NCBI RefSeq assembly: GCF_001746755.1
Contig: NZ_MCGG01000006.1
Location: forward strand, 1-46,634
Direction: 5' to 3'
DNA: 46,634 nucleotides
From: Magnetovibrio blakemorei
Lineage (GTDB): Bacteria; Pseudomonadota; Alphaproteobacteria; Rhodospirillales; Magnetovibrionaceae
The translations under genes were made by a program, and so were the position numbers. The notes below the pieces were generated by a model. It was not told the DNA's origin, did no database searches, and saw only the letters and a list, made by a program, of their open reading frames with translations. Below, one piece after another: positions 9,143 through 18,819 of the stretch; the stretch's first letter is position 1, and each line of letters starts with the position of its first letter.

Positions 9143-9182
9143 GACTGGATACGTCCTCATCTGACGGTGAAAGCTGTCGTTC

Positions 9183-9227
9183 TATATATCTTACCGATAT
9201 ATATCTCGTCGATATATATATCTTAGG
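9183..9227. repeat. Three tandem 15-bp repeats, probable operator of the RND operon
   Basis: Three head-to-tail copies of a 15-bp unit: TATATATCTTACCGA (9183-9197), TATATATCTCGTCGA (9198-9212) and TATATATATCTTAGG (9213-9227). They embed two perfect palindromes, GATATATATC (9196-9205) and GATATATATATC (9211-9222), spaced 15 bp apart. The array sits 41-85 bp upstream of the adaptor start, where the leftward promoter must lie; a TTGAGA hexamer on the minus strand (9236-9231) could be its -35. Phased palindromes in a promoter suggest cooperative binding of a dimeric repressor such as a TetR-, MarR- or PadR-type protein. No such gene is in the window, so the regulator is unknown. Confidence 0.65.
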
Positions 9228-9506: not shown

Positions 9507-9544
9507 AAAAACGAAGAACCCCCGCAGATTCTCATCTGCGGGGG
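9507..9544 (-). terminator. Intrinsic terminator of the predicted sRNA
   Basis: CCCCCGCAGAT (9519-9529) and ATCTGCGGGGG (9534-9544) form a perfect 11-bp, GC-rich stem with a 4-nt loop. On the minus strand it is followed by TTCTTCGTTTTT ending near 9507. On the plus strand no U-run follows, so it terminates leftward transcription. No protein gene lies upstream of it on that strand. Confidence 0.8.
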
Positions 9545-9602
9545 CGAGGGCTGTTTGGTGCAACAACGCCTCTCAGAAGAGAGATTAAATCTCACACTCT
9601 GT
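9507..9602 (-). ncRNA. Predicted ~96-nt small RNA upstream of urtA
   Basis: The minus strand carries a complete transcription unit without an ORF. A promoter with TTGACC and CATACT separated by 17 bp (9637-9609) predicts a start near 9602, and an intrinsic terminator ends it near 9507. The RNA begins with two competing small hairpins (GAGAT/ATCTC and CTCTC/GAGAG) and then an apparently open stretch. That stretch contains GUUGUUGCACC (9567-9557), an 11-nt perfect complement of bases 9833-9843 at the predicted 5' end of the urtA mRNA. The flanking GAGAG (9574-9570) also matches CUCUC (9848-9852). I do not recognise a named RNA family. The unit is inferred from sequence alone. Confidence 0.55.
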
Positions 9603-9608
9603 GGCTCA

Positions 9609-9637
9609 AGTATGGCCTCCGCACCGTGTCAGGTCAA
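9609..9637 (-). promoter_or_regulatory. Sigma-70-type promoter of the predicted sRNA
   Basis: On the minus strand, TTGACC (9637-9632) is separated by exactly 17 bp from CATACT (9614-9609). This is a good match to the -35/-10 consensus (TTGACA/TATAAT), with a predicted start near 9602. Confidence 0.5.
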
Positions 9638-9805
9638 TTGATCTAGTGCGTTGAAATAAAGAATAAAAATACCATTGTGCTCAAACGGCGGGCAGTTGAG
9701 ACGGGAGATGGGGTGAACAAAATATCCGCCTTACCCTGAGTGAGAGAACGTCAACTGTCTGAAATCCAACACGAAAAAGTCTCTAAAGTCAGGTTTATGA
9801 CAATC

Positions 9806-9821
9806 TGGCCCGGTTCTTGCC
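9806..9821 (+). promoter_or_regulatory. Sigma-54 (RpoN) promoter of the urt-ure operon
   Basis: TGGCCC, five bases and TTGCC match the RpoN consensus TGGCAC-N5-TTGCW. The invariant GG (9807-9808) and GC (9819-9820) have the required 12-bp register. Transcription should begin near 9832, giving a leader of about 42 nt with a strong GAGGAGGAG ribosome site (9858-9866). RpoN promoters need an enhancer-binding activator, and NtrC is the expected one for urea genes, but no complete NtrC site was found by eye. Confidence 0.8.
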
Positions 9822-9873
9822 TTTGAGAGGGCGGTGCAACAACACAACTCTCATTATGAGGAGGAGCTTTCGA

Positions 9874-11157
9874 ATGAAAAAAACCATGAAAATCCTGGCA
9901 GGTGCGGGCGCGATTGCCGCTTCGGTATTGACCGCCACCGCCGCACAGGCTGCCGACACCATCAAGGTTGGTGTTCTGCATTCCCTGTCTGGGACCATGG
10001 CCATTTCCGAGACCACGTTGAAGGACACGGTCTTGATGATGATCGATGAACAAAACAAGAAGGGCGGCCTGTTGGGCAAGAAGCTCGAAGCTGTGGTCGT
10101 TGATCCGGCATCGAACTGGCCGCTGTTTGCTGAAAAAACCCGTGAGCTGATCGAAAAAAACAACGTTGACGTGATCTTCGGTTGCTGGACTTCGGTTTCG
10201 CGCAAATCGGTTCTGCCGGTCATCGAAGAGCTGAATGGCATGCTGTTCTACCCGGTTCAATATGAAGGCGAAGAAAGTTCGCGAAACGTGTTCTACACGG
10301 GCGCTGCGCCGAACCAACAAGCCATTCCGGCTGTGGATTATTTGCTCAGCAAAGATGGTGGCGAAGCCAAGCGCATCGTGTTGCTGGGTACCGACTACGT
10401 TTACCCGCGCACGACCAACAAAATCCTGCGCTCTTACCTGCATTCCAAAGGCATCATGGATGCCGACATTATGGAGAACTACACACCGTTCGGTCACTCT
10501 GACTGGCAGACCATTGTCGCGGACGTAAAGAAATTTGCATCTGCTGGCAAAAAGACCGCCGTTGTGTCCACCATCAACGGTGACGCCAACGTGCCGTTCT
10601 ACAAAGAACTCGGCAACCAAGGCATCAAAGCGGAAGACATCCCTGTGGTGGCCTTCTCGGTCGGTGAAGAAGAACTCGCCGGTCTGGACACCAAACCGTT
10701 GGTCGGCCACTTGGCGGCTTGGAACTACTTCATGAGCGTTGATGCACCGGCGAACGCCAGCTTCATCAAAACCTGGAAGACGTTTATCAAAGACGACAAG
10801 CGCGTCACCAACGATCCGATGGAAGCCACCTATATCGGCTTCAAAATGTGGACCCAAGCCGTTGAACAGGCAGGTTCCACCGACGTGGACGCTGTGCGTC
10901 AAGCCATGTACGGCCAGACGGTTAAAAACCTGACCGGCGGTACGGCTGTCATGAACACCAACCATCACCTGTCCAAGCCGGTTCTCATCGGCGAAATCCA
11001 GGACGATGGTCAGTTCGATATCGTTTGGAAAACGGATGGTGAAGTGGTCGGCGACGCATGGTCCGACTTCTTGCCCGAAAGTGCCAAATTGACCGCCGAT
11101 TGGACCTTCCCTTGGGTCTGCGGCAACTGCGAAAAGCCTCTTTACGCAGCTCAGTAA
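9874..11157 (+). CDS. urtA: Urea ABC transporter, periplasmic urea-binding protein
   Basis: A 427-residue substrate-binding protein of the Leu/amide (HAAT) type. It captures urea in the periplasm and hands it to UrtBC. The signal peptide (MKKTMKILAGAG to AQA) is cleaved before ADTIKVGVLHSLSG, the usual UrtA N-terminus. The C-terminus WVCGNCEKPLYAAQ is characteristic of UrtA. I chose the ATG at 9874 because the strong GAGGAGGAG site ends 7 bp upstream and the signal peptide starts there; the frame is open further upstream. It is first in a 12-gene operon behind a sigma-54 promoter. Its mRNA 5' end is complementary to the predicted upstream sRNA. Confidence 0.96.
   Translation: MKKTMKILAGAGAIAASVLTATAAQAADTIKVGVLHSLSGTMAISETTLKDTVLMMIDEQNKKGGLLGKKLEAVVVDPASNWPLFAEKTRELIEKNNVDVIFGCWTSVSRKSVLPVIEELNGMLFYPVQYEGEESSRNVFYTGAAPNQQAIPAVDYLLSKDGGEAKRIVLLGTDYVYPRTTNKILRSYLHSKGIMDADIMENYTPFGHSDWQTIVADVKKFASAGKKTAVVSTINGDANVPFYKELGNQGIKAEDIPVVAFSVGEEELAGLDTKPLVGHLAAWNYFMSVDAPANASFIKTWKTFIKDDKRVTNDPMEATYIGFKMWTQAVEQAGSTDVDAVRQAMYGQTVKNLTGGTAVMNTNHHLSKPVLIGEIQDDGQFDIVWKTDGEVVGDAWSDFLPESAKLTADWTFPWVCGNCEKPLYAAQ

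Positions 11158-17109: not shown

Positions 17110-18819
<1,710 letters not shown>

Follow-up and report, generated by a model that had tools for sequence, protein, structure and literature searches.

Does the region ahead of the urea-import gene urtA in Magnetovibrio blakemorei encode a small RNA (sRNA) that pairs with the urtA message, and what would such pairing do? The window analysed here, i.e. the whole stretch of 46,634 nucleotides from contig NZ_MCGG01000006.1, had been inspected earlier from its letters alone; this sequence-only reading proposed a minus-strand sRNA complementary to the 5' end of the urtA mRNA. Our answer, which we consider probable, is that a dedicated base-pairing sRNA lies beside the urea-import operon, pairs with the urtA leader and represses its translation. 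The basis of this answer is the anatomy of the gene together with complementarity, conservation, co-variation and duplex predictions; from these we infer an RNA that is transcribed, acts as a repressor and is responsive to nitrogen. The features concerned are listed below (numbers with G, L, f and g are our handles for genomes, loci, families and genera).

9609-9637, minus strand: sigma-70 type promoter of the sRNA, TTGACC-17-CATACT (pattern)
9507-9602, minus strand: predicted sRNA of about 96 nt with three stem-loops (sequence, fold, covariance-model matches in relatives)
9574-9601, minus strand: stem-loop 1 of the sRNA (fold)
9546-9572, minus strand: stem-loop 2 of the sRNA, whose 5' arm and loop hold the antisense seed (fold)
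9557-9567, minus strand: antisense seed GUUGUUGCACC in stem-loop 2 (sequence; co-varies in relatives)
9518-9545, minus strand: intrinsic terminator stem-loop of 12 pairs, with a U-rich tail to 9507 (sequence)
9806-9821, plus strand: sigma-54 (-24/-12) type promoter of urtA, TGGCCCG-N4-TTGCC (pattern match)
9833-9843, plus strand: urtA leader segment GGTGCAACAAC, at or adjoining the predicted 5' end (sequence; co-variation)
9848-9853, plus strand: second leader block CTCTCA, sRNA-paired in the predicted duplex (duplex prediction)
9858-9866, plus strand: urtA ribosome-binding site GAGGAGGAG (sequence)
9874-11157, plus strand: urtA, urea ABC transporter substrate-binding protein, 427 aa (TIGR03407, 586.8 bits)

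The sRNA gene is located between divergent efflux genes and urtA, and its promoter has the 17-bp spacing reported by the sequence-only reading. The fold predicted for the 96-nt RNA has a free energy of -47.1 kcal/mol (z = -6.5). The RNA had been described as free of open reading frames, which is correct in that its longest complete start-to-stop frame is a single codon, but one frame is open throughout. Similarly, the terminator ending near 9507 was found as a stem at 9545-9518 followed by a U-run, but with 12 pairs instead of 11 and with the U-run interrupted (UUCUUCGUUUUU). The 3' part of stem-loop 1 carries CUCUUC (9581-9576), able to pair with the urtA ribosome site, and the start of GAGAG (9574-9570). 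The arrangement of stem-loop 2 with its seed recurs in most relatives folded. By loose patterns, a TTGA element stands 5' of the seed in all 44 pairs of sRNA and leader, the one in SI072/L063 being probably not the promoter, and a terminator is seen in 36 of the 44.

On the other side, the box ahead of urtA fits the sigma-54 consensus TGGCACG-N4-TTGCW (PMC4999443, in excerpt). The operon continues on the same strand with urtB, urtC, urtD, urtE and the urease alpha gene. By the usual -12 rule, the urtA transcript presumably starts near 9832, as had been predicted, so the sRNA pairing would begin at the very 5' end of the message. Both complementary stretches were confirmed in coordinates and sequence: the seed (9567-9557) is an exact complement of 9833-9843, and GAGAG is complementary to CUCUC (9848-9852).

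Could such a match arise by chance? Taken by itself, an 11-nt match is weak evidence, modest at best. A longest direct repeat of at least 11 between leader and upstream zone was found in 17 of 126 urtA upstream regions (129 entered, three dropped as too short) against 1 of 126 in the inverted-strand control; five regions (L046, L049, L058, L147 and L157) had been picked beforehand because earlier searches pointed to them, and L033 and L069, both among the 17, are apparently one contig. All 17 repeats are seed-type sequences of the sRNA-urtA system. Within the M. blakemorei genome, GGTGCAACAACNNNNCTC occurs without mismatch only at the sRNA seed and the urtA leader. For a single genome, chance is a possible explanation. 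Because the complementarity is conserved in relatives, it is far more than chance.

How widely is the arrangement distributed? UrtA searches of 120 relatives supplied loci of which the 30 best, including that of M. blakemorei, were read; both elements were present in 18, the leader only in three and neither in nine. A covariance model of stem-loop 2 (R1, 13 training rows) matched 18 of the 317 genomes of the order at E <= 0.05. In the genomes newly found at E <= 0.01 (G313, G136 and G422), all copies were beside urtA; G313 has two urtA loci (L147 and L161), each adjoined by its own sRNA, with the second copy cut by the contig end. In G023, G056 and G071 a second match falls on the urtA leader itself, in opposite orientation, as does the match in G302, and the matches in G171 and G211 (E 0.04 and 0.02) resemble chance matches. 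The G016 copy was missed by R1 and found by eye. A class-wide R1 scan of 385 genomes yielded M. blakemorei and G422 (beside urtA, outside the order), an undercount owing to stricter filters and to the failure of R1 to match the g33 form (G045 unmatched).

A second model, R2, was built on seven rows and matched 25 of the 29 genomes of genus g33. In 24 of them the match reached E <= 4.2e-4 and was beside urtA, 17 of these being new genomes outside the training rows. The weak match in G284 (E 0.009) also adjoins urtA, and G285 and G293 carry the element though R2 missed both. The 38 R2 matches overall include 13 weak ones (E 0.002-0.009) outside the inspected set. Furthermore, a UrtA scan of genome contigs, in which 80 loci mostly from other groups were kept, revealed the shared seed in four: L063 (Rhodospirillaceae MAG SI072_bin164), L068 (Rhodospirillales bacterium BBD 1991-14), L069 (HKST-UBA117, apparently the same contig as G023, of 8616 bases and with the same repeat) and L072 (Alphaproteobacteria MAG IP29b_bin.128).

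Altogether 49 sRNA-leader pairs were found. The pair is present in 43 of the 116 UrtA-bearing genomes of the order (27 of the 29 g33 genomes and 16 others), where the 116 are those of the 317 genomes with UrtA at E <= 1e-150. The genomes without the pair, apart from G316 with its partial UrtA, were covered by a repeat search, some also by eye, so that short or shifted copies could have been missed. G094, whose UrtA match is short (161 residues), also has the pair.

A similar leader but no clear neighbouring sRNA was seen at urtA in at least 14 of the 116 genomes (G027, G036, G039, G043, G048, G059, G061, G074, G104, G161, G287, G291, G302 and G315). G048 and G287 have degenerate stretches where the sRNA would be, and a displaced sRNA, sought in five leader-only genomes with exact GGTGCAACAA and R1, was not found; relaxing the pattern in seven genomes gave too little specificity to be of use. 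Since genomes lacking the sRNA keep the leader, the leader is not kept solely for the sRNA. The AAC repeats of the leader would fit an (ARN)n Hfq motif, which might explain this retention. G003, which belongs to the genus of M. blakemorei, has urtA with neither sRNA nor leader element.

Several observations on individual loci should be recorded separately. G305 has two urtA copies (L059 and L296) with the sRNA at only one, and the leader at the other, GGTGCAACGAACAAC, could apparently form a duplex with this sRNA if one base were bulged out. Leaders in family f27 (L236, L238, L245 and L265), such as GTGCAACAACAACCCCAAGGGGAG, have no visible sRNA; in them the ribosome site could be masked in cis by the C-rich stretch. 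In G004, of the same genus as M. blakemorei, a guanidine-I riboswitch (RF00442, 85.9 bits; L016:3359-3468) lies on the other strand about 580-690 bases upstream of urtA and hints at a guanidine-related gene there.

Do the two segments change together? They were compared as plus-strand segments, in which identity means Watson-Crick pairing. The pair sets differ among analyses: the alignment sought 40 (38 tabulated, two hand-added), the tree held 40, the partner swap 19 chosen pairs, folding, seed statistics and control region 44, and the transition count 49; later additions to the 44-pair set are G422, G135, G284, G285 and G293. The 44 pairs contain 21 distinct seed pairs. Seed position 8 is C/C in 12 of these, T/T in seven, G/G in one and A/A in one, and is never mixed; position 10 is A/A in 17, C/C in two, T/T in one and of G-U type in one. 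Over 13 seed positions, cognate identity was 87.5% as compared with 74.5% (sd 1.8) after shuffling of partners, a value as high being reached in 0 of 5000 shuffles. Three of the 21 seed pairs (L063, L068 and L072) were found through shared repeats, so a match at the seed follows from how they were chosen; that choice has no bearing on their stems or their ribosome-site matches.

In a quick urtA tree of 40 pairs, g33 (family f29) groups with f1 and f30 (one long-branch row) stands apart; G094 (161 UrtA residues matched) is a misfit row. On this tree the change from C to T at position 8 has at least two origins, each in both partners, one of which rests on the long-branch G046, and tree-based independent-pair tests gave 2 and 1-2 independent changes, too few for significance. 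Within g33, leader CTCAG goes with sRNA CTCA and leader CGCAG with sRNA CGCA in 23 of the 24 pairs then known, G298 being the exception. Later g33 pairs set other sRNA sequences against CGCAG leaders (CGCG in G284, CCGG in G285 and TCGG in G293), and the switch is not cleanly matched there. Seed mismatches also occur in G305, G313a and G016. Hence the independent drift that would have spoken against the sRNA is mostly absent among the 49 pairs, most changed seeds having changed in both partners, with the exceptions just given; position 8 is never mismatched in the 21 seed pairs.

The differences between partners are strand-specific. In a set of 40 distinct pairs of 27 nt, partners agree at 876 aligned positions and differ at 111. 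Transitions account for 67 of the differences; a G-U pair survives in 52 of them, and the other 15 would disrupt pairing (p = 6e-6, a nominal value because the rows are related). Leader-T/sRNA-C differences number 33 versus 2, a class that G+C richness of the sRNA could inflate, and leader-G/sRNA-A differences 19 versus 13, which runs against the G+C bias.

Concerted change would also be expected if the direct repeat were two DNA operators of a looping transcription factor and the minus-strand hairpin merely a terminator, as two sites of one factor would co-change too. The two sites do share an intergenic region, at a distance of 245-335 bp from each other, and GGTGCA resembles an NtrC half-site. 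Such operators, however, would not be expected to display the strand-specific G-U bias; moreover, in many pairs the similarity continues in the direction of the ribosome site or enters it, different spacings are tolerated in the two copies, and the seed-to-seed distance varies. We regard this explanation as quite unlikely. Still less credible, indeed extremely improbable, is a non-functional likeness maintained by recent duplication or gene conversion: although the copies form direct repeats, separated mostly by some 250-285 bp, their flanks are unlike, sequence change has left the promoter element, terminator and stem-loop 2 in place, and the G-U bias is again strand-specific. The sequences differ between families while the pairing is kept, and it is this comparative evidence that is decisive for the base-pairing sRNA; the joint change of sRNA and leader suggests an RNA brake devoted to urea uptake.

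Might urtA be only one target of a broad regulator, or the urtA leader a sponge for the sRNA? The sigma-54-plus-seed pattern matched 18 of the 317 genomes of the order, and in 15 of the 18 it was at urtA; a perfect match in the M. blakemorei genome occurs only at the two known places, and the changes in the sRNA seed track those in the urtA leader. All of these argue against that possibility, and we judge it very improbable.

Two-strand folding was used to predict the duplex of the base-pairing sRNA with its leader. For the 44 pairs, the mean binding gain was -19 kcal/mol, and the first ten leader bases were paired to the sRNA with a mean probability of 0.96. The corresponding value for the ribosome site was 0.79, exceeding 0.5 in 38 of 44 pairs. 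Complementarity to the translation initiation region is conserved, being weak at the ribosome site in six of 44, M. blakemorei included, where the GGAG part is sRNA-paired with a probability of only 0.35. Duplex prediction had been suggested by the sequence-only reading: in 21 cognate duplexes, each tested against 300 shuffled leaders (single-letter shuffles, as also for the control region below), z ranged from -3.4 to -10.3, and shuffled leaders as low as the cognate numbered 0 of 300 in 19 duplexes, one in G016 and two in G298. Together with the seed co-variation, these predictions support the proposed pairing across the initial ~20 nt of the urtA message. Partner-swap energies failed as a test of cognate pairing, with the own leader best for 8 of 19 sRNAs and the own sRNA best for 6 of 19 leaders, f20-type leaders pairing well with most sRNAs. 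As the swap was not decisive, we rely on seed co-variation and the G-U bias.

What would the pairing do? The sequence-only reading had considered activation as well as blocking or destabilisation of the message. Because the predicted pairing covers the ribosome site, we favour translational repression as the general mechanism; the complementarity is an observation, and from it we infer the direction. The sRNA would be transcribed divergently from the urea-import operon, ending before the operon, and its stem-loop 2 seed would pair with the opening ~11 nt of the urtA message. Pairing would then spread through stem-loop 1 across the ribosome-binding site and block translation start, so that urea import could be damped post-transcriptionally even with the sigma-54 promoter on. 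Over the 44 pairs, the predicted probability that the ribosome site is unpaired averages 0.32 for the leader alone and 0.13 with the sRNA; the site becomes less accessible in only 29 and no less accessible in 15 (rounded values).

The same pairing could also activate urtA, if a duplex at the 5' end protected the mRNA or freed a ribosome site hidden by a CUC-GAG hairpin. The leader seed indeed starts 1-2 nt from the predicted sigma-54 start in all 38 tabulated pairs, and the M. blakemorei ribosome site is mostly paired by a leader hairpin even without the sRNA (0.13 unpaired alone, 0.09 with it). Against activation, the ribosome site is itself predicted to be sRNA-paired in 38 of 44 pairs, and the leaders of f20 lack a strong hairpin over the site (0.38-0.73 unpaired alone). 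Activation is therefore unlikely in our view, and repression is retained.

How might the two promoters be regulated? Between them, 17-bp TG..(A/T core)..CA palindromes of the TGATTAAAAAATAATCA type were found in 36 of 44 loci, compared with 0.7 expected from shuffling; these loci include L029, L157 and L165-L188. Six loci have two palindromes, 28-29 bp apart in five, and in genus g33 the palindrome abuts the sRNA -35 box, about 140-170 bp upstream of the urtA start. In size and ends it resembles the NtrC site TGC-N11-GCA, a putative copy of which is reported in the NfeR1 promoter (PMC10746234, in excerpt). Tentatively, the divergent promoters may share palindromes as activator sites, with one bound nitrogen regulator switching urtA and the sRNA together, though we would not put this at even chances. 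No 17-bp palindrome was found in the M. blakemorei sRNA-urtA region, so the shared switch is hypothetical. If it exists, transcriptional and translational control of urea import would form a compact reciprocal switch, within which a diverging RNA-RNA helix could be traced through natural compensatory changes across a bacterial order. A separate AT-rich palindromic stretch with TATATATC repeats (9180-9225), ahead of the divergent efflux operon, is possibly the operator of a local regulator.

If our reading is true, it adds an RNA regulator dedicated to alphaproteobacterial urea uptake, found from sequence alone. The natural seed variants GGTGCAACAAC, GGTGCAATAA, GCAACAATAA, CTGCAACAACAA, GGTGCAAGACAACC, GTGCAACATCA and GGTGCAAAAC constitute a ready set of compensatory mutants, and they allow study of the co-evolution of an sRNA with its main target, usually hidden in sRNAs with many targets.

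Is the sRNA already known? Rfam 15 placed no family on it at the gathering threshold in M. blakemorei or eight relatives, and at E <= 1 it gave only chance-level matches (10 bits against 84 and 15.4 against 72.2), one of these queries having cut the last few terminator bases. Elsewhere in the window, the Rfam 5' ureB sRNA model matches 17266-17551 on the minus strand, opposite the urease alpha gene (116.4 bits). This match may reflect coding conservation only, or an antisense RNA; Helicobacter has an antisense 5' ureB sRNA. Among the matches listed in a literature search on sRNAs in urea and nitrogen control, which covered few subscription papers, none describes the present sRNA by title or abstract opening.

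AbcR1 and AbcR2 are broad trans-regulators that are not known to lie adjacent to their targets. These sRNAs of Brucella and rhizobia resemble the present one in being alphaproteobacterial and acting on ABC transporter transcripts (PMC5461406, in excerpt), and they regulate metabolism (PMC8844928, in excerpt). The cyanobacterial NsiR4 is likewise linked to nitrogen and represses translation through the gifA 5' UTR (PMC9170634), a review in which neither urea nor urt occurs. NsiR4 differs from the sRNA here in phylum and target.

The layout is toxin-antitoxin-like, with a divergent neighbour RNA, yet it stands beside a metabolic operon. ShoB/OhsC and DinQ/AgrB share the divergent layout of IstR-1/tisB. 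All are type I pairs, and the Escherichia coli antitoxin IstR-1 is the closest in layout, its gene being divergent from its target and its RNA partially complementary (21 nt) to the tisB 5' UTR (PMC4147584, in excerpt), as the sRNA is to the urtA leader. A type I toxin-antitoxin system of this kind was rejected as an assignment, UrtA (427 aa, TIGR03407) not being a small hydrophobic toxin; the target here is a nutrient-transporter operon. Moreover, IstR-1 binds a standby site far from the ribosome site, whereas the pairing predicted here extends from the mRNA 5' end to the ribosome site. Closest in function is NfeR1 of Sinorhizobium meliloti (alpha-r14 family), a three-hairpin alphaproteobacterial sRNA of nitrogen control that pairs with the translation initiation region of ntrB (PMC10746234, in excerpt), much as proposed here for urtA. 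NfeR1, however, is a trans-RNA with three CCUCCUCCC motifs, whereas the present sRNA adjoins its target and carries one leader-matching seed.
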